Positions 4,887 to 28,054 of a stretch of DNA of 64,000 nt are shown piece after piece. The translations under genes were made by a program, and so were the position numbers. The DNA is from a virus. Location of the stretch: positions 62,001 through 126,000 of the IMG/VR virus record IMGVR_UViG_3300026521_000527. The stretch is one strand, 5' to 3'. The notes below the pieces were generated by a model that saw only the letters and a list, made by a program, of their open reading frames with translations, was not told the origin of the DNA and did not search any database. Position 1 is the stretch's first letter; each line of letters opens with the position of its first letter.

Positions 4887-5135
4887 CTATTGAATTGATT
4901 CGTGATCTAATGTTTTTAATTCAGATTCAAGGCCAATTAAAATTTTATTTAATTCATCGACATCTAGAGTTCCGAATAACTCTTGAATCTGGTCTCTGTA
5001 TGGATTTATCTGCTCTTCGAGAATTATTAATTGCTTTTCAATTTGCTTTTTTTCCTCGAGCAATTTATTTAATTCATCTTTATAATGCTGAGCTTTTTGT
5101 CTAAGCTCGGAATCTGATATACTCTGTTGATTCAT
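4887..5135 (-). CDS. Small coiled-coil protein
   Basis: This 82-residue protein is dominated by Lys, Glu, Leu and Gln heptads between residues 10 and 60, so it is probably one long coiled coil. Its start, with AAGGAAGG upstream, lies inside the last 35 bases of the DNA polymerase palm gene, so the two are translationally coupled. It could be a small accessory or scaffold protein, but no family is recognised. Confidence 0.75.
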   Translation of the reverse strand: MNQQSISDSELRQKAQHYKDELNKLLEEKKQIEKQLIILEEQINPYRDQIQELFGTLDVDELNKILIGLESELKTLDHESIQ

Positions 5136-6396
5136 TATATTTTCCTTCCTTTATATCTTTATCAATTTTTGAAATAATTTCAGTACTAACTACTTGGAAT
5201 AATTTTATTCCGTAAATTTTTCCAGCTGTTGTTATTGAATTACCTATAATTGGTGAAGCAAATTGCCAAGTAATTAAACCATAAATACCATAAAGTGAGT
5301 TCAAAGTAACTTTAATTCCCTGCTGCATTGAATTAAATTGAGCTTCTCTTAGTGCAATAAATATTGGTATTTTTTCATGCGCATTTATTTTTTTATTTAT
5401 TTTATGAACTTCAAATTCAATTGTAGTTAGTGAAAAAAGACGTCCCTCTCTGGATTCAGTATCCTCAATCTCATTCAGGATTTGATTAGCCTGCCTTTCA
5501 CTTAAATATAAACCATTCTCTGGGTTTAAAAAGAACTCTTTAGTTTCTTCTGATAGTTTATTATACGCTGATAAAATAGCACCGAGCATTAGACTTCTGT
5601 TTTTAATTATTTTCCTATCATCTAATCCTATTTTAATTAATTCAACATCAAAAGCTAAATTTTCATCATGAAGATCATAAAGCACGCCATAAGGGTTAAC
5701 TATTTTGCGAGAAAATATTTCCCTCATTTCTTTAAGATTTAATTTTTTAAAACTAACTTTAGTTGAATTAAAATTCAGCATAATATAAATATATTTATTG
5801 CGATATTTTTGATCAAAATCATGATTGAAAAAAACATAATCTATTGTCGTTTGATTATATCCTCTATTTTGCGGGCTAACCCAAGTTACCAATTCAAGAA
5901 TTGGATAAAGATAACTTCTAAGTAAAAAATATGAAGTATCATCTTTAGGTTCAAAAATATCTTCTAGAGTTCCTTGGAACTCTAGAAGTTTTCTCAGAAG
6001 TGCTACATAATAATTTGAAGCAAATTCCAACATATCTGCTTTATTCTGTACTGTTTTTCTAGTAAAAAAATCTTTTAATGAACCTATTATAGCATTTGAA
6101 AATCCGGAACATGCTTGGTCAATAATTTCCGGATTATCCTTTTTCTTAGTAAGAACTGTGGCTATTAAATTTAACGTGCGATCAATAATCGCTGGTTCAT
6201 ATATTCTTGCGAATAAAGTATCATACCCAATATTTTGATGCATTAGACTAATTGGATATAGTGCATTAGCATCATTACTACTAACAACCATATCCGGTTC
6301 CAGTCCATAAATTCCAGGCACTGGTTGCTGAACATAAGCACCCTGCACTTTTAGATGCATCGCGAAATTTTTAATTTCTTCAATGGTAAATGCCAT
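5101..6396 (-). CDS. Family B DNA polymerase, palm/fingers piece (motifs A and B)
   Basis: This 431-residue protein carries the first half of a family B polymerase catalytic core. Residues 18-30 (QGAYVQQPVPG) match the segment that leads into the palm. Motif A is NDANALYPIS at 41-50, with Asp42 as the expected metal ligand. Motif B is KVTLNSLYG near 362-370, fitting Kx3NSxYG. The chain ends about 60 residues later, before motif C, which is in a separate gene at 27074-28054. The exonuclease domain is in a third gene at 24122-25162. There are no intein-like sequences at the ends, so the pieces probably assemble non-covalently. Confidence 0.9.
   Translation of the reverse strand: MAFTIEEIKNFAMHLKVQGAYVQQPVPGIYGLEPDMVVSSNDANALYPISLMHQNIGYDTLFARIYEPAIIDRTLNLIATVLTKKKDNPEIIDQACSGFSNAIIGSLKDFFTRKTVQNKADMLEFASNYYVALLRKLLEFQGTLEDIFEPKDDTSYFLLRSYLYPILELVTWVSPQNRGYNQTTIDYVFFNHDFDQKYRNKYIYIMLNFNSTKVSFKKLNLKEMREIFSRKIVNPYGVLYDLHDENLAFDVELIKIGLDDRKIIKNRSLMLGAILSAYNKLSEETKEFFLNPENGLYLSERQANQILNEIEDTESREGRLFSLTTIEFEVHKINKKINAHEKIPIFIALREAQFNSMQQGIKVTLNSLYGIYGLITWQFASPIIGNSITTAGKIYGIKLFQVVSTEIISKIDKDIKEGKYNESTEYIRFRA
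5961..5988. repeat. Intragenic perfect inverted repeat (13-bp arms)
   Basis: The arms CTTCTAGAGTTCC and GGAACTCTAGAAG are separated by TT, inside the polymerase palm gene. It is one of many long perfect inverted repeats within genes in this window, far longer than expected by chance. Confidence 0.85.
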
Positions 6397-6416
6397 TTTT
6401 AAAAACCGTTTCTATT

Positions 6417-7262
6417 TTAAAGTTTTTTCATATTTAGATAATATTTTCTCAGATTACCAAGTACTGGGGCAATTGATATATCATTTATATCTGTCGGACA
6501 ATCAATTTTATTAATCATCTTATAAAAATTATTCCTGATAAGGACCGCTTGTTTGACAAGAGTTTTTAATTCAGTAAAGTTATACGCTATACCAACTGCT
6601 TTATAGAACTCTCTGGTCTTTCCTGTCATTCTAATAACATCAATTTTAAATTTATTATCTTTGAATGTAATTCTTACATTTTTAATTAACGATTCTGGTT
6701 TACTACCACCAACTATTTTTTCTTTATAGTTCAATGACACTCTTGGGTTTAATTTAATAATGTCTCCCATAATATCTTCACGATATTCTAGTGCATCTTT
6801 TAGAGCCTTTTTAGCTTCAATTCTATTTCCGTATTCGAATTTAAATAATCTTGAATGGTGTACTCCATCTTTATTTCTTAACATCACTGTCCAATTAGCT
6901 GGACTATTCTCGTCTTTAACATATCTTGTTAAATATATCCCTCTGTAATCATTTTCAGTAATATCAATTCCATGATACATTAAAGCAATCTGTGTTGTTC
7001 CTGGTTTTGTCCCTGATCTCTTTAAAAATTTATACCAAAGATAAGCGTATTCCAATGCTTCCTCTGATGTATCAAAATCACAAACTTTGATAGTTTCATT
7101 AAAAGATTTTGAGTTCTTTGTAACTCTAACCAAGATTGTTTTGAATTCTGAGTCGATATATAAACCTCTTATTTTCGAAAGATCAATGCATGTTAAATTC
7201 AGTTCTCTTTGACTCAATGTTTCGATAAAATTTTGAAGATTGCTTTTTGTATAAGATGTCAT
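6417..7262 (-). CDS. Unknown protein with possible AP2-like DNA-binding segment
   Basis: This 281-residue protein is not assigned. A central segment (about 103-165) begins YRGIYLTRY, continues with WTVMLR, then FKFEYG, and ends EAKKALKDALEYRE. This strand-strand-strand-helix order resembles AP2-like DNA-binding domains found in phage proteins and homing endonucleases. A similar strand and helix pattern follows at about 190-250, so there may be two copies. The match is by pattern only. It begins a new unit after the folE hairpin, with AAAAGGA at the start. Confidence 0.65.
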   Translation of the reverse strand: MTSYTKSNLQNFIETLSQRELNLTCIDLSKIRGLYIDSEFKTILVRVTKNSKSFNETIKVCDFDTSEEALEYAYLWYKFLKRSGTKPGTTQIALMYHGIDITENDYRGIYLTRYVKDENSPANWTVMLRNKDGVHHSRLFKFEYGNRIEAKKALKDALEYREDIMGDIIKLNPRVSLNYKEKIVGGSKPESLIKNVRITFKDNKFKIDVIRMTGKTREFYKAVGIAYNFTELKTLVKQAVLIRNNFYKMINKIDCPTDINDISIAPVLGNLRKYYLNMKKL

Positions 7263-7339
7263 TTTATTTCCTTTTGATAATATATTTTGATGTTTTGGTA
7301 TTCAGCGTATTAAAATTATTAAAATTAATGAGAAAATCT

Positions 7340-7350
7340 GGGCACAGGAA
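7340..7350 (-). promoter_or_regulatory. Conserved motif next to hairpin (copy 1 of 5)
   Basis: The plus strand reads GGGCACAGGAA, directly next to the folE hairpin. Related copies lie at 19456, 31557, 49955 and 57469, always between a hairpin and the next gene start. The role is unknown. Confidence 0.4.
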
Positions 7351-7385
7351 ATCGGAGTGGTTGGCTTAAGCCAACCACTCCGATT
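7350..7385 (-). terminator. 36-base perfect palindrome after folE
   Basis: A perfect inverted repeat with 18-bp arms (AATCGGAGTGGTTGGCTT and its complement) lies just beyond the folE stop. In RNA it would form a very stable hairpin. There is no clear U-tract after it, so it may be a terminator of the phage polymerase or an mRNA-end stabiliser rather than a classical intrinsic terminator. Confidence 0.7.
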
Positions 7386-7396
7386 ATTTAAATTAT

Positions 7397-8407
7397 TTAA
7401 AGGTCTTTTCTAAACTCTTCATCATTATATAGTCCGCCGTATCTCTCAGATGTAAAACAACCATCTTTTGATTTAGCCCCTCTTATGCTTTCACATGTGT
7501 GGACTATATTATTTAAACGAACATAAACATTTTCTGTTCCAGCTGCCTCAGAAACCTTTTTATAAATTTCTTCAGTAAGTTCTTCTTGCAACCAACCTCT
7601 TTGTCCAACCCAATCAACTATTCTTTGTAATTTACTAATTCCAAGAACGTTATCTTCTGGAACATAAGAAATTATTGCATAAGCATCTTCTCTAAATGTT
7701 GATGAAAAAGGAGCAGCATGATGACTACAAACTGCAGTTAAATCAACACGTTTTGTAATTCTATGTTTGATTTTATTATTATTTGGAAATGTTGCCATTC
7801 TTGGAGGTTTGCTCCATCTCCCACTCATTAACTCTCTATCGTCTGTTGTTGATGCACCACACCACATTTTAGCAATTCTTTGGGCAGTTCCAATATTACC
7901 TGTTTCCAAATCGCTCATTACATTTGGATCACTGAGGTCAATTTTCATAGCTCTGAATGATTCCTCAATAAGTTTACCAGTTTTATATCTCATAATAAAA
8001 TGGGCTTCATCTGTCCATTTATAATCTTGCTCAAATATATTTTCATTTATTTTAAAAATAGGAGCCTGCTTATAAGTCTGCAGAGCTTTTGCAAATCCAA
8101 CCACCGTGTTAAATTTGCGATGATATGCCTCAAGTATCTCAAAGAATTCGATAACTTTAGGGTTCGGACTATCTGTTTCATAAAGTTCAATTACTTGATC
8201 TATGATCGGGTTCCCAAACTCAGTGTAATAACCTCTAGGTAAATATAATGTATAGGAATTATTTTTTTTATCGAACTCAATATTTTCCCAAGGTTTATAA
8301 AAATTATTTAATCTAATTTTTACATTATCAGATGATTCTATATGATCTTGGGTACAGATTCTATTTTCCTGTTTTTCAGGAAAATAGATTATTTCAGTAA
8401 CTTCCAT
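7397..8407 (-). CDS. folE: GTP cyclohydrolase I (FolE), long form
   Basis: FolE converts GTP to dihydroneopterin triphosphate, the first step toward preQ0 and other 7-deazaguanines. The C-terminal half carries the family signature: IGTAQRIAKM near 172-181, the zinc-site CSHH at 227-230, GISKLQRIV near 256-264, QEEL near 274, and HTCESIRG near 303-310 with the last zinc cysteine at 305. The usual CEHH is CSHH here. At 336 residues it is over 100 longer than typical FolE because of an N-terminal region of unknown role. With queD, queE, queC, Gat-QueC and the DpdA-like gene in this window it forms a DNA-modification pathway. The strong AAAGGA site supports the start. Confidence 0.93.
   Translation of the reverse strand: MEVTEIIYFPEKQENRICTQDHIESSDNVKIRLNNFYKPWENIEFDKKNNSYTLYLPRGYYTEFGNPIIDQVIELYETDSPNPKVIEFFEILEAYHRKFNTVVGFAKALQTYKQAPIFKINENIFEQDYKWTDEAHFIMRYKTGKLIEESFRAMKIDLSDPNVMSDLETGNIGTAQRIAKMWCGASTTDDRELMSGRWSKPPRMATFPNNNKIKHRITKRVDLTAVCSHHAAPFSSTFREDAYAIISYVPEDNVLGISKLQRIVDWVGQRGWLQEELTEEIYKKVSEAAGTENVYVRLNNIVHTCESIRGAKSKDGCFTSERYGGLYNDEEFRKDL
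8361..8387. repeat. Intragenic inverted repeat (11-bp arms)
   Basis: CTATTTTCCTG and CAGGAAAATAG flank a TTTTT loop within the first 20 codons of folE, so the hairpin could affect folE translation. Confidence 0.75.
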
Positions 8408-8418
8408 TTAAGTTTCCT

Positions 8419-8853
8419 TTACTCTGCTTCTGTTGCTTCTGTTGCTTCTGTTGCTTCTGTTGCTTCTGTTGCTTCTGTTGCTTCTGTTGCTTCTGTTGCT
8501 TCTGTTGCTTCTGTCGCAGCCATTAAAATTTCAATCACACTTTCAAGAACCTGTTTGCCTTCTTCTTCAGTATACTCATCTGGACCTGCAAAATCAAGTG
8601 TGCTTAGATTCTGGTTGTCGTCAAAATTTAATATAATTTCACAAGGGATTTGTGCATCCATGTGTAGTTTAGAAACAACATTGAATACCATAACATCTTT
8701 ATTATCCCTAGTTTCTTTTTGGGCAGCAATTATATAAACACCAGTTTTTTCCATAGCCTCCATTATTTCAGGATTCTCGATAAAAGGTGCAGACCCATCC
8801 ATTTGATAAGAATCCATCTCTACTTTATTTTCAACATTTTCAACATTTTCCAT
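8419..8853 (-). CDS. Unknown acidic protein with C-terminal Ala-Thr-Glu repeat
   Basis: This 144-residue protein ends in about ten Ala-Thr-Glu repeats encoded by a 9-base tandem repeat. The body (about 20-105) is a compact alpha/beta segment with no recognised family. The tail is acidic and probably unstructured. The gene lies 11 bases before folE in the same operon and has AAAAGGA at its start. The repeat number could easily change by slippage. Confidence 0.85.
   Translation of the reverse strand: MENVENVENKVEMDSYQMDGSAPFIENPEIMEAMEKTGVYIIAAQKETRDNKDVMVFNVVSKLHMDAQIPCEIILNFDDNQNLSTLDFAGPDEYTEEEGKQVLESVIEILMAATEATEATEATEATEATEATEATEATEATEAE
8427..8516. repeat. 9-base tandem repeat, ten units
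   Basis: The unit CTTCTGTTG (plus strand) occurs nine times exactly and once as CTTCTGTCG. It is in frame and encodes Ala-Thr-Glu repeats at the C-terminus of the gene at 8419-8853. Confidence 0.97.
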
Positions 8854-8864
8854 GATAATTCCTT

Positions 8865-9446
8865 TTAATTTAATTGTGCTTCTGGTGCAGTTAACATGCT
8901 ACCAATACCATGATTTCTATAGAAATCAAAATTCATCGTGCCGATAGCCAACACTTTCTGTACTTGTTCCAAATAACTACAAAAAGTTTCGATCTGAAAT
9001 AAAGACTCAATTTCAAATAATGTTTGATTTCCCTTATGTAAAATATTAAAAACTATTTTATCTTTATTAGGAAATCTAATGTATGCTGGTTTTTGATAAC
9101 CAGCATACTCCTCTAATGTACTCGATCCAATTAATATAAATGATGTATTCGAAGCATTTTCAATTATCTCCTTTCTAAGTTTAATTGACTGAATTAATTT
9201 TATAATATTTGCCAAATCCAATTCTATTGTCGGTTCATCTCTAAGATCCCGAGGAATTATATTTGGTGAAGATTGTTTGGAAAATCTCATGATTAGACGA
9301 CCGACTTCATATTGCAATTTAAAATTAATTATAAATTGACAACCCTCATCTGAATGGAATCCTTCAGTTGATCCATAAACTGGAAAATTACCGAAATGAA
9401 GATTACTTTTAAGAGTAATTTTTTGGGAGGTTTTAGATGAAGACAT
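8865..9446 (-). CDS. Unknown 193-residue protein
   Basis: No family is recognised. The N-terminus is Ser/Thr/Lys-rich, followed by a beta-rich region and an amphipathic helix near 160. It has no signal peptide or membrane segment. It follows the 44-residue gene with a 3-base gap and precedes the repeat-tailed gene by 11 bases, so all are probably co-transcribed with folE. A 10-11 bp hairpin lies inside it. Confidence 0.75.
   Translation of the reverse strand: MSSSKTSQKITLKSNLHFGNFPVYGSTEGFHSDEGCQFIINFKLQYEVGRLIMRFSKQSSPNIIPRDLRDEPTIELDLANIIKLIQSIKLRKEIIENASNTSFILIGSSTLEEYAGYQKPAYIRFPNKDKIVFNILHKGNQTLFEIESLFQIETFCSYLEQVQKVLAIGTMNFDFYRNHGIGSMLTAPEAQLN
9081..9108. repeat. Intragenic inverted repeat (11-bp arms)
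   Basis: GTATGCTGGTT and AACCAGCATAC are separated by six bases, inside the 193-residue gene. Confidence 0.75.
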
Positions 9447-9449
9447 AAT

Positions 9450-9584
9450 TTACTTCTTCATATTATTTAAAATCTTTGTCATTAGATGATGCCTGGCATC
9501 CATAAATGGGTTAATATATACCGGCCAGAGATGGGGTGCCAGTACTTTACTTAATTGGATTTTTTTAGTCTGATCTTGTTGCAT
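9450..9584 (-). CDS. Small protein, 44 residues
   Basis: A short frame starts at ATG 9582-9584 with a strong AAAGGAG seven bases upstream and ends in TAA at 9450-9452. It fills the only gap between the HNH protein gene, which it overlaps by 20 bases, and the 193-residue gene. The protein starts MQQDQTKKIQLSKVLAPHLW and has a basic, Met/His-rich C-terminus. Function is unknown. The ribosome site and exact packing make it a likely real gene. Confidence 0.7.
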   Translation of the reverse strand: MQQDQTKKIQLSKVLAPHLWPVYINPFMDARHHLMTKILNNMKK

Positions 9585-9990
9585 AGAACTCCTTTATAAG
9601 TTTTTTCTGTTTTTCATGTGCAACCGTTATTGCATCTAATACGTCTGGAACATGATCATGATATTTTTGATGACAATGTTTGCAAAGCACTATATAATCA
9701 ACTTCTCTTGCGAAATGTTTTTCCATAACCTCTTCAACAATTTGCAAATCAGTATATTCATATAAATCATCAAGATCAATATGTTTCTGAACGCATGTTT
9801 CAAAAATATCAAAGATTGTTAAAGGATGATGATGGGATTCTGGTTTAACATATTCGAAACTTTCTTTGCAGATAGGACATTCCTTTACTGGATATTTTGT
9901 AATTTTTTGCCAGCTCGCATAACTCATACTACCTCTTGCAATTTTTACTAAGTGTTTAATACATTTTACGAAAGATCTTTCATTAGTCAA
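9565..9990 (-). CDS. HNH-like zinc-binding protein, unusual start
   Basis: This 141-residue protein has CPIC (about 38-41), ESHHHP (about 51-56) and LCKHCHQKYH (about 101-110). This is the paired Cys-x2-Cys plus His-rich core of an HNH or zinc-finger nuclease-type fold. It may act on DNA in repair, packaging or homing. The start is unclear. The frame has no ATG before residue 22. A TTG lies at 9988-9990, but the only good ribosome site (AAGGAAG, near 10015) is placed for an ATT codon at 10006-10008, in frame. ATG at 9927 with GAGG is a third option. Confidence 0.75.
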   Translation of the reverse strand: MTNERSFVKCIKHLVKIARGSMSYASWQKITKYPVKECPICKESFEYVKPESHHHPLTIFDIFETCVQKHIDLDDLYEYTDLQIVEEVMEKHFAREVDYIVLCKHCHQKYHDHVPDVLDAITVAHEKQKKLIKEFYATRSD

Positions 9991-10025
9991 ATCGTAATTG
10001 TACCAAATATTACTTCCTTTTTTAT

Positions 10026-10874
10026 TTATCCCAAGTATCCTCCTTTTAAATTTATCTCTTTTTTATAAGCACTATTTAATGCGAATTTGAATTTAGTCAA
10101 AGTATTATGATCTGTTGTGATATATTCAATAAATTGATCTCCATCCTCCGAAAGAGACATTATGTAATCATTGTAAATTATTGATCTATTTTTACTAACA
10201 TAAAATTTAAATGAAAATCCTTTTCGGTAGTATCTTTTTTTATTTTCGACATCAATAAAAATAAAAAGAATTTCATTTGTCTTTTTTAGAACTTTTATAT
10301 CAAAAAGAGTTAATTCTAATTCATCAATTATTTCTTGATTTATCTCTTTTAAAAAAGTATTGTCCGATTTGTATTGCTTAAGAAGTTCTTGTTCTTTTAA
10401 ATCCTTTTCTTTTTCAGCAACTTCGAGTGCTTTAGTAACAATTTCTTTTCTATCTTTTGATTTAATATTTATTTTTTTATCAAGTGTTTGGCTTTGGATA
10501 TTTTTAGCCTCATGTATACTTAATGCAGCTTTTGAGTCAATTAACTGACAATCCCTTAACTTATGAAATTCTTCTAACTTATTATCTCGTTGAGGAAAAA
10601 ACTTCCAGGTGTTAAAACGAGAAGCGATTGGATTCCATTTTACCAATAACTGAATAGTTTTTATACTTTCAATTGGATCTGGAATATTAAATAGATCGTT
10701 AAAATATTTGCCGAAAATCCTTGTTAAGTGTGGACTGAACCAGAATTGTTCATGCAAATAAGGTACTATACCATTGAGTCTAGATTTATTAAAAATAAAA
10801 TCTTCTGGTATTTTAGCACCTGAAAAAATTAAGTTATTAACCTGACTAAAAGTAATCTGTTGTGACTTTTGCAT
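10026..10874 (-). CDS. Unknown 282-residue protein
   Basis: No family is recognised. The N-terminal 100 residues are mixed alpha/beta with many aromatics. Residues about 110-185 are Lys/Glu-rich and probably coiled coil. The C-terminal third is beta-rich. I chose ATG at 10872-10874 (AAAGGTC upstream) over the TTG one codon earlier. It is followed by the HNH gene and preceded, with a 12-base gap, by the nuclease-like gene. Confidence 0.75.
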   Translation of the reverse strand: MQKSQQITFSQVNNLIFSGAKIPEDFIFNKSRLNGIVPYLHEQFWFSPHLTRIFGKYFNDLFNIPDPIESIKTIQLLVKWNPIASRFNTWKFFPQRDNKLEEFHKLRDCQLIDSKAALSIHEAKNIQSQTLDKKINIKSKDRKEIVTKALEVAEKEKDLKEQELLKQYKSDNTFLKEINQEIIDELELTLFDIKVLKKTNEILFIFIDVENKKRYYRKGFSFKFYVSKNRSIIYNDYIMSLSEDGDQFIEYITTDHNTLTKFKFALNSAYKKEINLKGGYLG

Positions 10875-10886
10875 CAATGACCTTTA

Positions 10887-11531
10887 TCAACTACTTCCGT
10901 AGGTATATGATTTATTATATAATTCTTTAAATTTTTTAACCTCTTTGGAGTACGTAAAAAATTTATCCAGATTTACTGTCTTTGTCACTTTATCGAATTC
11001 ATAATGCCCTAAACAATAATCATTAATATATCTCGGCTCAAAATTAAACCCATAAGTTATTGAATCTCCTTGAATTGAAATCTCAGGATGAGTCTCTTTT
11101 AACTCTTTTAACACTTCTACCGGAATTACCCTAAATTTTACTACAACTTTGGTTTCATCATTAAATTTAACGATATCTGGATTTAATAAAATATAATAAT
11201 CTGCTTCAGTTACTGAAAGACCGGATGGTTTTTTCCTTGGGAGATTCCCAATAGAATTATCTTCTTTATATGTCTCAATAAAAATATTCTTAGATACAAA
11301 GCTTGATATTTTAATTTCCAATTTTGTATTATCAGATAATTGAACATCGAACTCTGGTGCAAATCCTAAAGAATAATACTTAGGTTGAATACCATTGTTT
11401 AATAATTGGCAAAATTTCTTCGAGACTAAAGTCTCAAAGAAATAATCCAAGTATTCTTTATCAGATCTTGTCCAATCAGAAAGAGTTCCAATATTTATTT
11501 TTTTATCTTGAGTCCAGTAGAACTCTTTCAT
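10887..11531 (-). CDS. Putative PD-(D/E)XK-fold nuclease
   Basis: The motif EFDVQLSDNTKLEIK fits the Asp-x(n)-Glu-x-Lys core of the restriction-endonuclease-like fold. A downstream segment with FIETYK and TEADYYILL fits the extra Glu and ADYY-type strand often seen in this group. It could be a phage repair, recombination or host-DNA-degrading enzyme; the target is not predictable. ATG at 11529-11531 makes a 4-base ATGA overlap with queD, so I prefer it. An upstream ATG at 11570 also has a GGAG site and would add 13 residues. Confidence 0.6.
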   Translation of the reverse strand: MKEFYWTQDKKINIGTLSDWTRSDKEYLDYFFETLVSKKFCQLLNNGIQPKYYSLGFAPEFDVQLSDNTKLEIKISSFVSKNIFIETYKEDNSIGNLPRKKPSGLSVTEADYYILLNPDIVKFNDETKVVVKFRVIPVEVLKELKETHPEISIQGDSITYGFNFEPRYINDYCLGHYEFDKVTKTVNLDKFFTYSKEVKKFKELYNKSYTYGSS

Positions 11532-12136
11532 TGCGCAAGAACCTTTACATGACTTTTCGGAGTCTCCCATAACTCAACTCCAGTTACTTTGACATGTTCA
11601 AGATCTTTTAATTTATTAGTAGCTATTCTTAGTAACCAGCCAGCAATATTTTCAGAAGTTGGTATAAAATCGACTAATACTATCCCTTCATATTTTTCTT
11701 TTACAGCTTTATCTTTTTCTTCATCGGACTGCAAATCAATACCTAATTTATTCAGATCTGGTATAAAATATTCATCTATTTTAAATACATTTTTTAACTC
11801 ATTATCCTCAAATAATCTTGGTAATTCATCTTGCAAAAGAGGATCATTTATGTCAAAAAGCATTTTGTGATCCAATACATCATCTATAAAATCTTTCATG
11901 AACCCAATCATTTTAAAGTCTAAAACCATTCCGGTATCTTTTATATTGTCACCTGGAATTGTCTCCTCGAGTAAAATCTTTGCTCTATAAGAATGCCCAT
12001 GAAGATGCCTACAAGCACAGCACGAATCTCCTCTATGAGTATATTTTGTATCAAGAGTTTGACTCCATACCCTATGTCCAGCTTCCCAGTGAAATTCTTT
12101 ATCGATGATTGTTTTTGTAGTTTGTATTCTTTGCAT
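11528..12136 (-). CDS. queD: 6-carboxytetrahydropterin synthase (QueD)
   Basis: QueD makes 6-carboxy-tetrahydropterin from the FolE product, the second step of 7-deazaguanine synthesis. Visible are FHWEAGH at 15-21, the catalytic Cys region CCACRHLHGH at 39-48 with zinc histidines, GMVLDF near 98, LDHKML near 118, PTSENIA near 161, and ETPKSH near 191. At 202 residues it is longer than most QueD proteins (about 120-140), with an insert between about 125 and 155. It has a strong AAAGGA site and is the first gene after a terminator-like palindrome. Confidence 0.93.
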   Translation of the reverse strand: MQRIQTTKTIIDKEFHWEAGHRVWSQTLDTKYTHRGDSCCACRHLHGHSYRAKILLEETIPGDNIKDTGMVLDFKMIGFMKDFIDDVLDHKMLFDINDPLLQDELPRLFEDNELKNVFKIDEYFIPDLNKLGIDLQSDEEKDKAVKEKYEGIVLVDFIPTSENIAGWLLRIATNKLKDLEHVKVTGVELWETPKSHVKVLAQ

Positions 12137-12163
12137 AATTTTCCTTTAGCTTTAACTATTTGC

Positions 12164-12180
12164 TTTAATATTTTTATATA
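12164..12180 (-). promoter_or_regulatory. Possible promoter variant before queD
   Basis: On the minus strand CAGTATATAAAAATA follows the palindrome and precedes queD. It resembles the stronger GTATATAAATA element seen at 35353, 47419 and 55754 but has two extra A's and lacks the upstream TTTAGAATAA box. Confidence 0.3.
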
Positions 12181-12189
12181 CTGTTTAAC

Positions 12190-12221
12190 TTGGACTAGAG
12201 TGATTAATCACTCTAGTCCAA
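12190..12221 (-). terminator. 32-base perfect palindrome
   Basis: TTGGACTAGAGTGA is followed by TTAA and its exact complement. It lies just after the 37-residue gene and before queD, so it probably ends the upstream transcript. Confidence 0.7.
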
Positions 12222-12228
12222 GGCTAGT

Positions 12229-12342
12229 TTAAAAATCTTTTATATTGATAAATTTAAAAACATTATGTTGGTTTCTGACTGACTCTTTCTTTTTTGATTT
12301 AATTTTAATTAATTTAAAAAATATTTTATTTATGAATTTCAT
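12229..12342 (-). CDS. Small basic protein, 37 residues
   Basis: The frame starts with ATG at 12340-12342 (AAGGAG four bases upstream) and overlaps the preceding stop by 4 bases in ATGA fashion. It ends with TAA at 12229, just before the palindrome. The peptide is rich in Lys, Ile and Phe and starts MKFINKIFFKLIKIK. It may be membrane- or nucleic-acid-associated; no family is known. Confidence 0.5.
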   Translation of the reverse strand: MKFINKIFFKLIKIKSKKKESVRNQHNVFKFINIKDF

Positions 12343-14148: not shown

Positions 14149-14166
14149 GTTTATCCTTTGATTAAT

Positions 14167-19436: not shown

Positions 19437-19455
19437 ATTTTCTCCTATAAAAATT

Positions 19456-19467
19456 AAGCACAGAAGG
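19456..19467 (-). promoter_or_regulatory. Conserved motif next to hairpin (copy 2 of 5)
   Basis: The plus strand reads AAGCACAGAAGG, between the branched palindrome and the ribosome site of the coiled-coil gene, only 20 bases from that start. Confidence 0.4.
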
Positions 19468-19470
19468 TGC

Positions 19471-19557: not shown

Positions 19558-20127
19558 CTAAATTTTATTATTATTTTCTGCTTTAAATTTCGCTTTCTGT
19601 GTTTCATCAGCCAATGTTTTTAATTGACCGGCCAATCCTATCGCATGCCATTTTTCAAGAGCTAAAGTAATTTTAGCATTACCTTTATATGATAAAAATA
19701 TTTTAATTTTATTATTATTACCCATTGCTGCGCCGACGGAAACCTGTTTAGTTTGACCTTGGCCTGCTGCAGTTCCTGCAAATTTTGAACTATCAGTAAA
19801 TACCATAAAATCACATTTTTGATAAACAGCAGCTTGTATTAGTGCCTCACTAAGCGCATATAAATCACGGATACTTATTTTTTGAGTTTCTTTTCTTGAT
19901 TGATCATAAGTCCTTCCAGATGCTTTTGATTGATCAGGAACTCCAGGTACAAACATTAAAAAAGCATTCGCTGTAGGAAATTCTTTTGCTTTATCAATAA
20001 AACCAGTTGCTTCAAATAATTGAGTTGCTGGAAAATTAACTCTACCAACGACTTCAATTGAAGAAGCTTGTGGTGCTTGTGGTGCTTGTGGTGCTTGTGG
20101 TGCTTGTGGTGCTTGTGGTGTATTCAT
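19558..20127 (-). CDS. Unknown protein with N-terminal Pro-Gln-Ala repeat
   Basis: This 189-residue protein begins with a flexible Pro-Gln-Ala repeat (about residues 4-21) encoded by a 9-base tandem repeat. A folded region follows with a Lys/Gln/Gly-rich centre (for example AAGQGQTKQVS) and a strand-rich C-terminus ending in Lys/Asn. A nucleic-acid-binding or virion role is possible, but no motif decides. The start has a clear AGGAG site. Confidence 0.75.
   Translation of the reverse strand: MNTPQAPQAPQAPQAPQAPQASSIEVVGRVNFPATQLFEATGFIDKAKEFPTANAFLMFVPGVPDQSKASGRTYDQSRKETQKISIRDLYALSEALIQAAVYQKCDFMVFTDSSKFAGTAAGQGQTKQVSVGAAMGNNNKIKIFLSYKGNAKITLALEKWHAIGLAGQLKTLADETQKAKFKAENNNKI
20066..20119. 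repeat. 9-base tandem repeat, six units
   Basis: Six perfect GCTTGTGGT units (plus strand) encode the N-terminal Pro-Gln-Ala repeats of the gene at 19558-20127. Confidence 0.95.
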
Positions 20128-20139
20128 ATTAATCTCCTG

Positions 20140-20571: not shown

Positions 20572-20588
20572 GTTTAACCTTTTAAAAT

Positions 20589-23210
20589 TTATACTTTATT
20601 AAATTCTGGATCTACACCTTTTGCTTGTAGAAATCTATCTAAATCTTTCACATAACTTTTTGCTCCAGTATAAGAATAATAATGCATATTTGCTCGCATG
20701 TTTTTTTCCCGAGATGATGAAACATTACCGTCGTCACTCGATTGTGACGCATGAATTATATCAAGTGCTCCTTTTGCGCCCTGTTGCCAAGCCATATACA
20801 CATTTCTTAAATTCGCAGGTAATCCATGATTATTTAGATATTTAATAATGTACTTTTCGCGTTCAGCGCACATTCTATCCTGATTCTCCGGAGTCCATAT
20901 TTCAGGACTATTTGGATCCAATCCAATTTTTTTAGCGTACTCGTTTGCAGTACCATCTAAAAATTGATACGCTCCTCTAGCACCTGTTGTTGGATTTATC
21001 GCTTCGTATCCTTCAGGAACATTACCCGCAAGTCCAGTTGATTCAACTTTAGCAATTTCCGCACAATAAACTCCAGCTGATATTTTATCTAGAGTTTTTG
21101 ATGAACCATTACCTTCAATTCTAAAAGCTCCAGCAAATTGCTTATCCCAATATGCTACACGATTACCTCCTTTACCAGTAGTGTATCTTTTTTCAATACT
21201 TGCTCCTTTACATGGATTTGATTTGGTACAAGAACTTGCTGGACGATATGGAGTAACTCTAGAACTACTTGCCATAACTTCAGTTTGACTTTTAGCAATC
21301 CCAACATGATGCACTCGATTAATATCAGCAGTTGTAGATAAAAATATAATATCTCCAGCTTGAACTTCATCATAATCTATTGGGGACGCATATCGTCTAC
21401 ACCAATCTGCTTGTGCCTGCGAACCTTTTGGAAAAGCATCTTTTGACATTCTCCCACCATATTTTTTTAAACCAGTTGCTAAACACACAGAGGTCATTAC
21501 AAAACCACTACAATCATACCATCCAGATTCAGCACCACCCCAAAGATATCTAAATCCTTTTTTAATTAAGGCTTCCGCTGTTTTAGCAATATCATTTGAT
21601 GTTCCTTTTATATTCAATTGCCCATTATAAGGAGAACCAGCACCATATATAACACCATTTATAGAAACACTTCCAGTTGATGGATTAATAGTTTCTATTA
21701 TATTATTCTTTAATTTGGATATCTGTTTAGAAATATCTAGAAGTATATTGGTATCTTGAGGTTCAACATTCTCAGTCATTAAGAACTCAATCTTAGCTTT
21801 ACATTTAAATGTTTTTTGATTATCTTCATTATTAGTCTCGCTTTCAAAGAATGAAATAGTTTCGACTACAGTTGGTGTGAAAACCCACTCAATTCTATAA
21901 GCAGGCCCTTTTCTAGCATTTTCAATAACAGTATTATCTTCACTAATAAATTTATCTTTAAAAAGGGCTTTTTTTATATCCAAATGTCCCCAGGCAATAT
22001 TATCCACTTCATAAGTTTCATAATTAGGGTTCATTTCATAATACTTTCTAAAATAACTTAATTGTTTAATTAAATCATTCTCAGATAAAAAAGAATATAT
22101 TCTTTTTACTTTTGGGTTAGGAATTTGCTTAACTTGTAGATGATCCCCACATGAAATATACTTTTCAGTGATTTTATTAATTGATGTTGAATCAATTATG
22201 GTTGGTACATTATCCGATGTCTGGACTAATTGAATTAAAGGATCTTTTGAATTAGATTCAAATTTTAATTTATCAAAATATGGTCTATCCTCTATTTTAC
22301 TGATTTTAAAATATCTAGCTTCGTCCAAATATGTTTGATGTCTAGGTCTAATCAAAGGTGTAAGAAATTTATCTTCTTCCCATGACCGAGGAATATAAAA
22401 ATCAGTTACAATTAGCTCTGTTGAGTTTTTTGAATTTAATGGCAAATCATCTTGAATCCAATTAAAAGGCGTAAGATATGGAGGGTAATTTTTAAAAAAT
22501 TCTTCTAGAATTTTAAAATTATTATCTGATTTAAATACATAACCGCTTGTTGGAATAGAGGTTGATATTGTTTTTAAATCGGTTGAACTATCATTCATGT
22601 AAATAAGATGAGTTGAGTTCGAACTCAACTCATCTGAATTTTCTATATAATCACCATAACCTTCGGTTCCCATTTTAGGAGATACTTTTGAACCATAATT
22701 AGTGTATGTTTCTAAAAATATTTGCTCTATGTGTCCGAGCAAAAATATACGTGGATTTGATTTACCATATTTAAGACTGGTTTGACTAGTAAACCCAAAA
22801 TTATTTTCAAGAAGCATTCTTCCAAGAGTCCAAGATATAAGTCTTAAGTTCACAGAGTATAAATTATTTCCACCAATTCTTTTCGTTTCAATTTTTCCCA
22901 TCTCCTCAATTTTAAAAACATTACTACTTGATGAAAGATTCGTGGTATCTGTATTGTCTTTTTCATGAATATAACCAGATGTTATTGTAATTGATATTGA
23001 ACACCCACCGGATGTAATTATATTTAACTGATCTATAGTTAATAATTTTAATTCTAGATATAGTTCAGTTTTATGAGATTCATAAGACTTTAAAACTCTA
23101 AGTTCATTGATGTTGTAATGAGTTAAATCAAACTCTTTTATTTGGCCATTTTCTTTTGAATCTATAACTTCATGAATCTTAATTTTCAGATCATTAAAAT
23201 AGGCTTGCAT
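20589..23210 (-). CDS. Large virion lysin: NlpC/P60 plus lytic transglycosylase-like domain
   Basis: The N-terminal 500 or so residues of this 873-residue protein are unassigned and probably structural. An NlpC/P60 cysteine peptidase-like domain starts near 550: WYDCSGF at 564-570 gives Cys567, QAGDIIF follows, and VHHVGIA near 633-639 supplies the histidine. A third domain (about 715-870) resembles a lytic transglycosylase or lysozyme, with EIAKVES near 718-724 and GARGAYQF near 743-750. Two peptidoglycan-cutting activities on one long chain suggest a tail-associated protein that opens the cell wall during infection. No signal peptide is visible. Confidence 0.85.
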   Translation of the reverse strand: MQAYFNDLKIKIHEVIDSKENGQIKEFDLTHYNINELRVLKSYESHKTELYLELKLLTIDQLNIITSGGCSISITITSGYIHEKDNTDTTNLSSSSNVFKIEEMGKIETKRIGGNNLYSVNLRLISWTLGRMLLENNFGFTSQTSLKYGKSNPRIFLLGHIEQIFLETYTNYGSKVSPKMGTEGYGDYIENSDELSSNSTHLIYMNDSSTDLKTISTSIPTSGYVFKSDNNFKILEEFFKNYPPYLTPFNWIQDDLPLNSKNSTELIVTDFYIPRSWEEDKFLTPLIRPRHQTYLDEARYFKISKIEDRPYFDKLKFESNSKDPLIQLVQTSDNVPTIIDSTSINKITEKYISCGDHLQVKQIPNPKVKRIYSFLSENDLIKQLSYFRKYYEMNPNYETYEVDNIAWGHLDIKKALFKDKFISEDNTVIENARKGPAYRIEWVFTPTVVETISFFESETNNEDNQKTFKCKAKIEFLMTENVEPQDTNILLDISKQISKLKNNIIETINPSTGSVSINGVIYGAGSPYNGQLNIKGTSNDIAKTAEALIKKGFRYLWGGAESGWYDCSGFVMTSVCLATGLKKYGGRMSKDAFPKGSQAQADWCRRYASPIDYDEVQAGDIIFLSTTADINRVHHVGIAKSQTEVMASSSRVTPYRPASSCTKSNPCKGASIEKRYTTGKGGNRVAYWDKQFAGAFRIEGNGSSKTLDKISAGVYCAEIAKVESTGLAGNVPEGYEAINPTTGARGAYQFLDGTANEYAKKIGLDPNSPEIWTPENQDRMCAEREKYIIKYLNNHGLPANLRNVYMAWQQGAKGALDIIHASQSSDDGNVSSSREKNMRANMHYYSYTGAKSYVKDLDRFLQAKGVDPEFNKV
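22607..22634. repeat. Intragenic 28-base perfect palindrome
   Basis: GATGAGTTGAGTTC is followed directly by its exact complement with no loop, inside the lysin gene. Confidence 0.9.
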
Positions 23211-23222
23211 ATTAATTCACCT

Positions 23223-24053
23223 TTAATCTAATTGTCTATCTATATGAATCCTAGGGCTGTATGTTATACCAAGTGATAGTGCTTTTCTGCTAGTTGCATC
23301 CATTGATTTTTTCCAAACGGTGCTATCTTTATCCAGAGGATCATTTGGTGTAAACGGCATTAAGATTATATTTTTTTTTGGAACATTTAATTCCTCAGTC
23401 AGATATTTTATAAACATCTGAGTAGTATTAAATGAAATTGATTCATCAGTGTAATCATAAATAAATTTATAGAATACATTATATTGACGAAGATATGAGT
23501 TTATATTATTAAAAACATTAAAGTACATAGCATTGACTTCAGCTTGAGTTAGTTGATCCTCATAACAACTGGTTGCGTTTATTTTTGGAGATATTGTTAA
23601 GGTTGGAGTTACTCCTAAATCATGAATAATTTCATTAAATGATTTTATTAAAGCCAAACAATTCTTTTCATCACTTAAAAGGTTTCCATTTGACTCAATT
23701 CCAAGGAATTCAAAATGTTTAAAATTTACCGAGTCTGCAGTTCTAAATATATCTGGAAACCACTCCATAAAATGTAATGGTTCACCACCAGTGATCGTTA
23801 ATCTCTCAGGAGATACTTTTTCAAGTTCTTTTGCCATATCGATCATCAATTTACGGTCATCAAATGCTTTATATTGAGGAGCATCACCCCATGAGAATTT
23901 AGTATCACAGAAAGAACAAGCTGCCGAATAACAACCAGCTAACCTTAAATATAAACTAGGCTCTCCTATTGAATTTCCTTCACCTTCTAATGAAATAAAC
24001 CACTGAGATATTTTTGGAGCAATTACTGACTGGTTAAAATTTAATTCTTTCAT
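23223..24053 (-). CDS. queE: 7-carboxy-7-deazaguanine synthase (QueE)
   Basis: QueE is the radical-SAM enzyme that rearranges 6-carboxy-tetrahydropterin to 7-carboxy-7-deazaguanine. FISLEGEGNSIGEPS near 19-33 and RLAGC just after fit the family, as does TITGGEPLHFMEW near 93-105. The cluster motif reads GCYSAACSFCDT, so the cysteines are spaced Cx4Cx2C rather than the usual Cx3Cx2C. The C-terminal segment with IILMPF is typical of QueE. At 276 residues it is normal to slightly long. It lies between a palindrome and the lysin gene, with a good ribosome site. Confidence 0.92.
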   Translation of the reverse strand: MKELNFNQSVIAPKISQWFISLEGEGNSIGEPSLYLRLAGCYSAACSFCDTKFSWGDAPQYKAFDDRKLMIDMAKELEKVSPERLTITGGEPLHFMEWFPDIFRTADSVNFKHFEFLGIESNGNLLSDEKNCLALIKSFNEIIHDLGVTPTLTISPKINATSCYEDQLTQAEVNAMYFNVFNNINSYLRQYNVFYKFIYDYTDESISFNTTQMFIKYLTEELNVPKKNIILMPFTPNDPLDKDSTVWKKSMDATSRKALSLGITYSPRIHIDRQLD

Positions 24054-24093
24054 ATTTTTCCTTTTATATTATTATTTAATTTATTTAAAAAAT

Positions 24094-24127
24094 GATTAAT
24101 GAGTGAGTCTAGACTCACTCATTAATC
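24094..24127 (-). terminator. 34-base perfect palindrome at the end of the exonuclease gene
   Basis: GATTAATGAGTGAGTCT is followed by its exact complement (17-bp arms) and includes the stop codon of the exonuclease gene. It separates that gene from queE. Confidence 0.7.
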
Positions 24128-25162
24128 CAATAAAGGAAAGAATATTTCCCTATTGAATTTTTTGACACGAGTTATTTTAGACTGTTTTGTATAAATTAAA
24201 TTATTTCTATAACTATACATTCTGCTTCTTCCAGAGACTGCCGCACTCATTGGACTTGTATTATATTTAGTCAACATCCAAACCTGCTCCATAAATTCTA
24301 ATTTTTCATCAATTTTAAATGTCAAAATAGTATCTAGAAGGTTGTATGTTAAAAATCGAACTATGTTGTTTATGTACTCATAATTCATATCCTCCAAATC
24401 CAATTTTGTAATTCCAAGTTCTTGCATTGCTACAGTACCCAATTTATAATTTGGTAATGATGAACCGAGACCGCTTCCACCTTGATCAACTGGTTTATAT
24501 AATTTTAATAGATCAATTAATAGATAATCCGGCCAATCATAATTATTATCTGAGAATTTATGAACCTCATTAAATTCAGAAATAAAACTATAAATGCTAT
24601 CGCCTGCTAATCTATGTCCTCTGTTTACAACATAAGGGTCATCAAAAATACTACTATTAAACCCAATAAGAAAAAGAGGATTATTACTCCGAGTATCTAA
24701 GAAGAACTCTTTTAAGAGTTCTTCTTCACTCTGAAATGTTCTAATTTCTAACTCCATTCCAGGAACTTCATAAACCGGATTTTCTTTAATTAATTCATTA
24801 TATAATTCTTGAACCCCAGTTTTTAATACACTTGCTTCTGTTATATTTGAATTATATGGTGTACAATAAATAATAGCTTTATTTAATAAGTTATTATACA
24901 CTGCAATTGAATTAACAGGATAGTCAACTCTTACCGCATCAGGAAATACCTCAGGATCATAATGAACCTCAATATCATAATATGACTTATTAAGTGTTTT
25001 TTTGACTGGATCGCTCTCCTTAAACTTAGTCATGAAATCTTGAAATTCACTCTCATCTGGGCTCAATTCTAGATTATAAAACTGGTGAAATTTTAATTCA
25101 CCAGTTTTAAGTGACTGCATCATCTTATAAAGATCGCCAGAATTTAATTTATATTTATCCAT
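24122..25162 (-). CDS. Family B DNA polymerase, 3'-5' exonuclease piece
   Basis: This 346-residue protein carries the proofreading exonuclease domain of a family B polymerase as a separate chain. Exo I is YYDIEV at 61-66 (Asp63, Glu65), Exo II is FNSSIFDD at 168-175 (Asn169, Asp174), and Exo III is YNLLD at 273-277. The chain ends before the palm, which is encoded at 5101-6396. The motif C and thumb piece is at 27074-28054, about 2 kb upstream in the same gene cluster. A free-standing exonuclease is possible, but the complementary polymerase pieces make a split enzyme more likely. Confidence 0.88.
   Translation of the reverse strand: MDKYKLNSGDLYKMMQSLKTGELKFHQFYNLELSPDESEFQDFMTKFKESDPVKKTLNKSYYDIEVHYDPEVFPDAVRVDYPVNSIAVYNNLLNKAIIYCTPYNSNITEASVLKTGVQELYNELIKENPVYEVPGMELEIRTFQSEEELLKEFFLDTRSNNPLFLIGFNSSIFDDPYVVNRGHRLAGDSIYSFISEFNEVHKFSDNNYDWPDYLLIDLLKLYKPVDQGGSGLGSSLPNYKLGTVAMQELGITKLDLEDMNYEYINNIVRFLTYNLLDTILTFKIDEKLEFMEQVWMLTKYNTSPMSAAVSGRSRMYSYRNNLIYTKQSKITRVKKFNREIFFPLLD
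24699..24726. repeat. Intragenic inverted repeat (13-bp arms)
   Basis: AAGAAGAACTCTT and AAGAGTTCTTCTT are separated by TT, inside the exonuclease gene. Confidence 0.85.
25078..25108. repeat. Intragenic inverted repeat (12-bp arms)
   Basis: AAAACTGGTGAA and TTCACCAGTTTT are separated by seven bases, near the start of the exonuclease gene. Confidence 0.75.
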
Positions 25163-25176
25163 TTATATAAACTCTT

Positions 25177-25986
25177 CTAGAATAATTTATTTTTTAATTG
25201 AGTTATTTTTGACTCAATTGAAGTTATTAAATCATTAATCTCGTCATCTTTCGTATTTTTAAATTCGTCCAGAATATTTGGATGAACTTTAAGTATATTT
25301 TTTAAGGTTTTGGTGTAGCTGTATGATTTGGGACTCTTTTGAGTGCTTTGTAACTCATCATAAGAATATTTATCAACCAACTCAATATATAAGTCTGATG
25401 GTATTTCAATATCCCCGACAATAATATGAGTAGCCAGTCCTCGTTGACACATTTCATAAGCACCGAAATATAAATCATTACCCGATAATATATTATTGAT
25501 CTCATCGGAAGTTAATTGTGGAACCAACTCGTCTATTATATCAAAAGTTAATTTATTATAATATTCAGTATATGAAGTAATCACTTGTCCTCTTCCAGAT
25601 ACAGTTGATTTATAATTATGAAACATTAATGTACTTGATTCATATATTACTCTTTTTTCTCCAATCATGAAGATATATGCTGCCGCGCTCATCGCCTCCG
25701 GATTAATTTTAGTAATTATTCTTGCACCAGTGTTTTGGAACTCATTTATCAATCTATATGCTTCATCCATATAACCCCCAGGCGAAGCAAGATTTAACTC
25801 AATTATATCTTTAGATTGTATTTCTTTAATATTTTTAATTATATTAAATAAACTAACTCTTGACCCCTCAAGCTCATGAATATAAAAGGAGTGAATTTTT
25901 ACATCATGATTTTGAATTAAGCCAATGTTATTTTGATTATAGCTATGAAAACACTCTTTATCAGAATATGTATCTTTTCTCGCCAT
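25177..25986 (-). CDS. ClpP-like serine protease (S14 family)
   Basis: This 269-residue protein has the ClpP fold signatures: LASPGGYMDEA near 66-76, the nucleophile segment AMSAAAYIFM with Ser100, and LMFHNYKS with His123. No transit or signal peptide is seen. The C-terminal 80 residues beyond the core are helical and basic. Phage ClpP-like enzymes can be head-maturation proteases or intracellular proteases, and no capsid gene is in view to decide. It lies between thyX and the polymerase exonuclease gene, with AAAGGA at the start. Confidence 0.88.
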   Translation of the reverse strand: MARKDTYSDKECFHSYNQNNIGLIQNHDVKIHSFYIHELEGSRVSLFNIIKNIKEIQSKDIIELNLASPGGYMDEAYRLINEFQNTGARIITKINPEAMSAAAYIFMIGEKRVIYESSTLMFHNYKSTVSGRGQVITSYTEYYNKLTFDIIDELVPQLTSDEINNILSGNDLYFGAYEMCQRGLATHIIVGDIEIPSDLYIELVDKYSYDELQSTQKSPKSYSYTKTLKNILKVHPNILDEFKNTKDDEINDLITSIESKITQLKNKLF

Positions 25987-25990
25987 ATTT

Positions 25991-26461
25991 TTAATCCTTT
26001 ATTAAATCTTGAATTGCTGACGCCAGATCTCTTATCTCCCATAAAGCATCTTTAGAAGTTCTAAGCTTAATAAAATTATCTAGTTTGTCGTGACTAATTG
26101 TCATAGTTAAAGTTGTTTTGTAACTCTCAGGTAAAGCGTATTTAATTTTATCATTGGATTTATTTTGAAGAATTAATTTTCTGACATTTTCGAGTGCCGA
26201 AATACTGGCTCGATCAATTTCAACATCTCCTGTCATAACTAGATATTTTTCAGCCCTGATAAAATCATCTGGTTTCTTTTTTTTAAATTTATCTTCCATC
26301 TTCAATTCTTTTAAAGTATATCTGGTTGATTTTACACTGAAGACAGCTTCATGCCTAACTATCTCTTGCAGACATCCTCTAGAAATACCCTCAATAAAAA
26401 AAGTGTAAAATCCAAAATTAGATGAGTCATCACCTATAAAATGTTTTAATGTTATTTTCAT
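25991..26461 (-). CDS. thyX: Flavin-dependent thymidylate synthase, C-terminal piece
   Basis: This piece carries the ThyX signature as EIVRHEAVFSVKSTRY (33-48), fitting RHRxxSxxxxSxRY with His-Glu replacing His-Arg. Later SYKTT and IKLRTSKDALWEIRDLA match the ThyX C-terminal substrate region. The N-terminal part of ThyX is encoded by the next gene upstream. I place the start at ATG 26459-26461, one base after the TAG of that gene and with GAGGGAG upstream. The longer frame to 26497 lacks a ribosome site. ThyX makes dTMP from dUMP using folate and FADH2. Confidence 0.9.
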   Translation of the reverse strand: MKITLKHFIGDDSSNFGFYTFFIEGISRGCLQEIVRHEAVFSVKSTRYTLKELKMEDKFKKKKPDDFIRAEKYLVMTGDVEIDRASISALENVRKLILQNKSNDKIKYALPESYKTTLTMTISHDKLDNFIKLRTSKDALWEIRDLASAIQDLIKD

Positions 26462-26462
26462 T

Positions 26463-27053
26463 CTATTCTCCCTCAAAATATTCTTTATATAATTCATCTA
26501 TTTTCTTTTCGATTGGAAACACACCAACTTTACCAAATAATATTACAGTACCATCAACAACTTCTATTTTTTTATCATTTGAGTCAGTAATAACTCCACT
26601 TTCATAAAAATTATATTTATTTCCTTCTATGTCAATTATTTTTTTATTTATCAATAATTGAATAATTTCAGAATAATCATATAAATCTACAATTAAATCC
26701 CCTAAAATTTTTTTATTTTGGTATAATGTTCTTGCATTTATGACACCAACTTTCGTCGATTGATTATAAAAACTATACTGATCGGTTTTTAAGAACTCAA
26801 TTATACTTTTTTGAGCTGCATTAATAGATGGGTTATTATATGAACTATCTATATTTAATTTAAAAATTATATTCAGATGAGCAAGTATAGAGAAATGTTT
26901 AAATTTTTTACCAACTCTTACAATGAGTTTTTTATCACTCTCTCCTATGGTATCACATACAGAATCAGATTTTGAAAAACTATCCCAACATGTTCTTGTG
27001 GCATTAGCCGCAACAATCAAAGGTGTCTCTTTTAATAGTGTAAAATTTTTCAT
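26463..27053 (-). CDS. thyX: Flavin-dependent thymidylate synthase, N-terminal piece plus unknown domain
   Basis: Residues 9-67 match the ThyX N-terminus: VAANATRTCWDSF at 14-26, then GESDKKLIVRVGKKF, and HFSILAHLNIIFKLN near 53-67, where the family has an His-x-Ser-x-x-Glu-His-like stretch. After this the chain departs from ThyX for about 125 residues of unknown alpha/beta sequence (70-196) instead of continuing to the RH signature, which is in the next gene. The usual Glu-His of that stretch reads Ala-His here. Together the two genes would rebuild one ThyX with a large insertion at the junction. Confidence 0.8.
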   Translation of the reverse strand: MKNFTLLKETPLIVAANATRTCWDSFSKSDSVCDTIGESDKKLIVRVGKKFKHFSILAHLNIIFKLNIDSSYNNPSINAAQKSIIEFLKTDQYSFYNQSTKVGVINARTLYQNKKILGDLIVDLYDYSEIIQLLINKKIIDIEGNKYNFYESGVITDSNDKKIEVVDGTVILFGKVGVFPIEKKIDELYKEYFEGE

Positions 27054-27073
27054 CTATTTCCTTTTTATTTTTA

Positions 27074-28054
27074 TTATGAATTACGATGCGACATAAACTC
27101 AATATTATTTCGCCTAGTTTCATCAGAAAATATCTTTTGAAACTGATCAATTTTTTTATCAAGATTAAATTCTATAATTGACTTTAAATCAAATTTAATA
27201 TCGATTTCTTTAAAAACCTCGAAAACATTTTTAATTTCATCATCGGTCATATCTACTGGGAATGAAATTGTTTTTAATTTATGATTAATATCCTCCTTTT
27301 GAATTTGGTATTTAGTCTTACTTGGATGTTCGTCATAATACTGCAATAATCTTGATGGGTTTATAATTAACTGAACTTGAAATAAACTCTCACCTGGCCG
27401 CAAAACATCCCTAAATAAATAATTATAGAGCATCGCACCAATTACTTGTGGAGGTACCTGTTTGTATTTATTATTAGACCATTTTTTCGGTATACCAAAG
27501 TCAGTAAAATGTTTCTGTTGAACTGATTTTATAATTCTATTTAAGTATTTTTTATAAATTCTTCCATATATCTCTTTATAAAGAGTATCTTCATCCTGAA
27601 TTGATAAATCAAGGAGTACTTTTTTATAAATTTCAGTCAATAAATCAAAAACTATTCGAGTACTATCAGACTTAAGAATTTGACCACCTGTTTTCTTAAG
27701 AGCTAAATTTTCAAATAATTTTCCTTCATCATACATCTTTGCCATTCCGTAATTTTTTTTAGTATTATACATTGCCCGTGCGGCGATAATCTCACTCTTA
27801 AAAAACATATGATTATATTTTGGATTAACATTACCAAATTTTTCGACGGTTTCTGTAAAAATATCCCGATATATTTTATTAATATCCTCGGCCATATCCA
27901 GACAAAATTTTACGGTCCTATTTAAATCATCCAATTTATTAAATGGTATTTTAGACTGGGAGTAAGATGAATCTGTATCCCCATATAAAGACCATTCACT
28001 GAAGTCAATTGTTTCAATAAACCCAGGTTGTATTAAGTTATTTAAAACATTCAA
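27074..28054 (-). CDS. Family B DNA polymerase, motif C and thumb piece, TTG start
   Basis: This 326-residue protein begins just before motif C: SLYGDTDSS at 22-30 with the catalytic Asp pair (Asp26, Asp28). The following Lys-rich region (KKNYGMAKMYDEG near 98-110 and KKTGGQ near 120) matches the KxY and KKR area of family B polymerases, and the rest fits a thumb domain. It lacks motifs A and B, which are in the gene at 5101-6396. The start is TTG at 28052-28054, with GAGGAG six bases upstream; no in-frame ATG precedes motif C. Confidence 0.9.
   Translation of the reverse strand: MNVLNNLIQPGFIETIDFSEWSLYGDTDSSYSQSKIPFNKLDDLNRTVKFCLDMAEDINKIYRDIFTETVEKFGNVNPKYNHMFFKSEIIAARAMYNTKKNYGMAKMYDEGKLFENLALKKTGGQILKSDSTRIVFDLLTEIYKKVLLDLSIQDEDTLYKEIYGRIYKKYLNRIIKSVQQKHFTDFGIPKKWSNNKYKQVPPQVIGAMLYNYLFRDVLRPGESLFQVQLIINPSRLLQYYDEHPSKTKYQIQKEDINHKLKTISFPVDMTDDEIKNVFEVFKEIDIKFDLKSIIEFNLDKKIDQFQKIFSDETRRNNIEFMSHRNS

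Follow-up and report, generated by a model that had tools for sequence, protein, structure and literature searches.

Family B DNA polymerases that are divided over more than one gene are known from both cells and phages. The cellular enzymes of Nanoarchaeum equitans and Methanothermobacter are encoded in two genes, and in Nanoarchaeum the pieces are rejoined by a split intein. Among phages, the T4-type polymerase gp43 of Aeromonas phages 25 and 44RR is made from separate genes, 43A and 43B, and for phage 25 the two products are described, in PMC2988022 citing Petrov 2010, as co-purifying and having polymerase activity. AR9/PBS1, a jumbo phage with RNA polymerases of its own, encodes its family B polymerase (PolB) as gp132 and gp152, in two genes about 15 kb apart, with motif A on one chain and motif C on the other (PMC5312081). 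In cyanophage S-B05 the exonuclease part lies away from the polymerase gene, while PolB of Pseudomonas jumbo phage MIJ3 and PolB1 of Aes123 bear inteins (PMC6892783, PMC11923092). Here we report that a 64,000-nucleotide stretch of viral DNA (hereafter, the window; bases 62001-126000 of the linear, 136,864-base IMG/VR record IMGVR_UViG_3300026521_000527) carries the parts of a T4/RB69-like family B polymerase in three separate genes, and that this three-way split is conserved across a phage lineage and is no accident.

All three genes lie on the minus strand, at the places given by the original prediction, which had been made from the letters alone. The exonuclease chain of 346 amino acids (aa), encoded at 24122-25162 (PF03104, E=7e-13; positions 99-349 of phrog_262), carries exo motif I, D63-I-E65 (24968-24976; D114/E116 of RB69), motif II, N169...F-D174 (24641-24658; N217/D222), and motif III, Y273-N...D277 (24332-24346; D327), each placed, like the polymerase motifs, by alignment to RB69. 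The first part of the palm and the fingers belong to a chain of 431 aa (5101-6396; PF00136, E=3.6e-8; positions 377 or 380 to 549 of phrog_262), which holds motif A, D42-ANALY-P48 (6253-6273; D411), and motif B, K362-VTLNSLY-G370 (5287-5313; K560 and N564). The second part of the palm and the thumb, with motif C, Y24-G-D-T-D-S29 (27968-27985; D621/D623), are found in a third chain of 326 aa (27074-28054), identified by phrog_262 (574-767, E=2e-13), by phrog_1918 and by the match of its model to RB69 gp43; unlike the other two it has no Pfam match, and its gene starts with TTG, preceded by a GAGGAG site. Motifs A and B stand about 170 aa farther apart than in RB69; the extra length is conserved in close relatives and no known domain was found in it. 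The C chains end (in the window, at the C-terminus of 27074-28054) in a conserved KLxxFxKLF-like tail that calls to mind the tail by which gp43 binds the clamp.

Taken together, the three chains fit one family B polymerase. They tile phrog_262, a profile of full-length phage PolB, consecutively and without overlap, and this profile matches exactly three places per record, again tiling it, in the window's own record and in three relatives. When concatenated, for alignment only, and compared with gp43 of T4, RB69, Phynn and Cygsa01, the pieces supply all catalytic residues of RB69 gp43 at the exonuclease, motif A, motif B and motif C sites. The cuts map to RB69 residues ~375/376, a real domain border, and to between ~605 and ~620. 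Of the features expected of the family, the three exonuclease motifs and their acidic residues are present, as are motifs A, B and C and a profile match running across exonuclease, palm, fingers and thumb. The full N-terminal domain (RB69 1-108) is not, as just 62 aa stand ahead of exo motif I, so we speak of a gp43-related family B polymerase and not of a complete gp43-type domain set. Pfam, phrog_262 and the RB69 alignment therefore bear out the predicted distribution of the exonuclease motifs, motifs A and B, and motif C plus thumb over three proteins. The catalytic aspartates do lie on different chains, as had been claimed, but this is not a new feature, since the two-chain PolB of AR9 has it too. 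The genes are also out of domain order, running C, exonuclease, A+B along the direction of transcription. The predicted spacing of about 20 kb holds for the A+B gene, which is 17.7 kb from the exonuclease gene and 20.7 kb from the C gene, but not for the latter two, which are 1.9 kb apart; between them lie thyX, in two parts, and a gene resembling Clp protease.

A scan of viral_contigs with each single piece of the window recovered no relative. Relatives were found first through the RNA polymerase beta gene, a bridge to 8 related contigs of up to 281 kb, and then by scanning with alignments of the pieces; a scan of genome_contigs for the pieces found nothing and hence gave no hint of a host. 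Besides the window's own record, four others hold the full set of three genes: G001 (281 kb), G002 (273 kb), G009 (227 kb) and G010 (92 kb). A complete separate A+B gene is present in these four relatives and in G007, and in L045 the contig ends within another. The C gene stands separately in 13 contigs and the exonuclease gene in 14, about nine contigs beyond the four relatives having both. The relatives' pieces are 33-59% identical to those of the window, the gene borders are the same across this divergence, and the catalytic residues are invariant. In 10 contigs the C gene lies directly upstream of the exonuclease gene, and in others one or two genes intervene (in G001 thyX and the Clp-like gene, like the window), whereas the A+B gene is located elsewhere, in G002 on the opposite strand. 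Among the four closest records the ratio of nonsynonymous to synonymous change (dN/dS) is 0.03-0.07 for both the C and the exonuclease gene, that is, both are under strong purifying selection. Pairwise distances of the C and exonuclease pieces are correlated (r=0.955 over 14 records), as are, over five records, those of A+B with the exonuclease (r=0.91) and with C (r=0.69); as common descent alone would yield such values, they are weak evidence of interaction. A two-piece version was seen in L047, and a fused one in the more distant phage L046, where exonuclease and A+B form a single open reading frame (ORF) of 837 aa (L046:1817-4330); near motif A it contains a mini-intein in frame, and it ends after motif B. 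The 70-kb contig of L046 has no C part. Judged from this single example, the cut between motifs B and C would be older than that between exonuclease and motif A.

We consider it probable, with good though not full confidence, that the three chains form a non-covalent replicative polymerase. They would come together, with no covalent link, as a single T4/RB69-like enzyme, in which chain 1 would be the proofreading exonuclease, chain 2 would bring motif A, the fingers and motif B, and chain 3 motif C and the thumb. The palm would stay incomplete until chains 2 and 3 meet; as each contributes some of the catalytic aspartates, neither chain should be able to polymerise by itself. Both cuts fall at loop or domain borders. 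The active two-chain 43A/43B of phage 25 is a biochemical precedent for such an assembly. The split would be ancestral to a lineage of jumbo phages that encode a multisubunit RNA polymerase themselves; its probable origin is the breakage and rearrangement of a gene.

Several results weigh against this reading. Modelled alone, the A+B piece reaches a predicted local distance difference test score (pLDDT) of just 68: confidence is good for most of the fingers region (residues 60-365) but below 50 in both palm segments (residues 1-59 and 366-408). A fold search of the model against PDB and BFVD gave no significant match, which does not in itself count against the fold, and the A+B fold therefore rests on sequence. 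By comparison, the C piece modelled alone has a pLDDT of 83 and matches the palm and thumb of RB69 gp43 (E=4e-7), with motif C in a low-confidence stretch. The poor palm segments fit with a palm completed only when the chains meet; shallow alignments (7 and 14 rows) could be an alternative cause. For A+B, dN/dS comes from distant pairs only, with near-saturated synonymous change, and the value of 0.17 for G007-G010 (dS above 1) is rough. A search of the linear, 181-kb G007 (L028, L041) with the exonuclease piece gave no match; this record has the A+B gene and a cut end of the C gene at a contig edge, and may be incomplete. Finally, related contigs of up to 281 kb suggest that the complete jumbo phage genome is probably about twice as long as the window's own record, and the search for further polymerases, described below, was confined to certain families.

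The best-surviving alternative, which we nevertheless regard as rather unlikely, is a two-chain core of A+B with C, accompanied by an exonuclease that is mostly free-standing or exchangeable. The first cut does fall on a real domain border, the exonuclease is separable in other phages, as S-B05 with its exonuclease part in another gene illustrates, and G007 has A+B with no exonuclease match in 181 kb. On the other hand, the exonuclease gene adjoins the C gene or lies near it in nearly all relatives, keeps all its catalytic residues, and co-varies with C, although shared descent alone gives such covariation.

Much less probable is that the pieces are decayed remnants in a genome copied by the host polymerase, or by a phage-encoded one in the unseen half. 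We looked for a second complete polymerase, and none was found as far as sequence allows: the window's own record has one PF00136 place and one PF03104 place, and PF00476 and PF07733 match neither there nor in four relatives of 181-281 kb. No second family B, family A or Pol III match was thus obtained, but the search took in no families beyond these three, and it could have overlooked a phiKZ-type enzyme of very divergent sequence. This limit and the incompleteness of the record leave some room for the idea of remnants; against it speak the absence of any other match from these three families in relatives as large as 281 kb, the open frames, borders and catalytic residues kept over a divergent lineage, and the low dN/dS of the exonuclease and C genes.

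Only a slim chance, smaller still, remains for rejoining of the pieces into one polypeptide by RNA or protein trans-splicing. This would parallel Nanoarchaeum, and split inteins do occur close by: in L076, L078, L079 and L080 the C gene is itself broken within motif C (DTD/S) by a split intein (L076:460-3050; L078:4348-6885; L079:5278-6882; L080:5300-6885). The first ORF of each runs through YxDTD into the intein N-half, and the second begins with the C-half, ending HN before the motif's S. The halves are matched by TIGR01445, TIGR01443 and PF14890, although some N-half scores only reach the curated cut-off or fall slightly short of it. Between the halves lies an ORF of 392 aa (L076) or 373 aa (L078), both phrog_22677; L080 has a 61-aa remnant and L079 none. 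Since G009 (L080) and G010 (L078) also have a separate A+B gene, the polymerase is spread over four genes in these two records. The same intein models, which match in these four relatives at a site different from the three-way cuts, match none of the pieces of the window, G001 and G002, in agreement with the predicted lack of intein-like ends, and an Rfam search at the cuts found no intron, so three chains are expected. Moreover, in every relative the genes start and stop independently of one another, and the ends outside the conserved core, ~5-30 aa, are too short for intein halves. As for an assembly or sequencing artefact, for which one could cite the metagenomic origin of the contig and its likewise broken thyX, it is refuted by independent contigs in which these three genes recur with identical borders, in G002 even on opposite strands, a recurrence that disproves it and leaves it practically no probability.

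A more far-reaching version of the three-chain enzyme can be entertained only tentatively, being on balance improbable: it might be a three-subunit replicase with a separable proofreading subunit and a catalytic centre formed only by the meeting of the other two chains, fidelity or timing being set by subunit supply, and in some relatives the fourth gene and protein splicing within the catalytic motif might act as a further switch.

Turning to the surroundings, the window also encodes RNA polymerase beta and beta-prime pieces, a type II topoisomerase, a DNA ligase, a clamp-loader-like AAA gene and RecJ, which makes a phage-run replication system plausible. In G001 the RNA polymerase beta match (L019) spans 4.8 kb versus 3.4 kb, with an extra 281-aa ORF (2288-3133) inside. 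The moraphage lineage (PMC12619734) was set aside as the source lineage, having been reported without RNA polymerase genes. ThyX of the window is formed by two overlapping genes: 26463-27053 matches positions 3-64 of the Thy1 profile and continues with ~130 unrelated residues, and 25991-26497 matches 59-186; G001 has a single intact ThyX of 262 aa at the same place (L068:7285-8073). Directly upstream of the A+B gene, the gene at 6417-7262 contains, by eye, what look like AP2-like DNA-binding repeats, with no Pfam match, and its G001 counterpart of 295 aa occupies the same place (L040:5021-5908). Genes for GTP cyclohydrolase I (7397-8407), a PTPS/QueD-type protein (11528-12136) and a QueC-type protein (31588-32931), together with two genes that by eye look QueE-like (23223-24053) and, for a second time, QueC-like (49215-49931), would make up a preQ0-type pathway, perhaps serving DNA modification. 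Tandem repeats occur in coding regions at 8425-8514 and 20066-20120 (both perfect, with units of 9 bases encoding EAT and APQ) and at 34636-34818 (33 bases, TPAEVQTQAAD).

If the three-chain reading is right, no other family B polymerase that we found described is as divided as this one, and the division has been kept across a diverse phage lineage. The assembly of an active site from separate chains would become testable, and natural cut points would be on offer for split-polymerase engineering. Moreover, L046 and the split-intein relatives would represent stages that might reveal in which order the gene was broken.

How, then, does this polymerase compare with those already described? Phages 25 and 44RR share with it a T4-type enzyme made from separate genes, but theirs has two chains, with genes separated by an insert, whereas the window has three chains and one remote gene. 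AR9 PolB, whose proteins belong to PHROGs 3011 and 2927, resembles it in the distance between genes and the separation of motifs A and C, yet has a single cut, between motifs A and B. The same cut divides the likewise T4-type two-piece PolB of PHROGs 2062 and 1918, here represented by L047. The window conforms to neither two-chain type, having two cuts, one between exonuclease and motif A and one between motifs B and C, and keeping A and B on one chain. In S-B05 the cut is inside the exonuclease domain, and palm, fingers and thumb remain in one 626-aa chain. MIJ3 PolB has a split intein with a free endonuclease gene between the halves, and the C-terminal intein block of MIJ3 and Aes123 (GNNILVHNS) resembles the block in L076 and L079; these polymerases are rejoined by splicing, while the window's own cuts have no intein. 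PHROG has no families of its own for three chains with these cuts, and the INPHARED matches inspected contain no such polymerase. The original prediction, which named Methanothermobacter and some T4-like phages, was right that split family B enzymes are known, and its view of a three-way split as unusual agrees with our finding none in the open-access papers searched. Division into two chains and the separation of motif A from motif C are thus established features of phage family B polymerases; what is new is a polymerase encoded as three chains, cut between exonuclease and motif A and again between motifs B and C.
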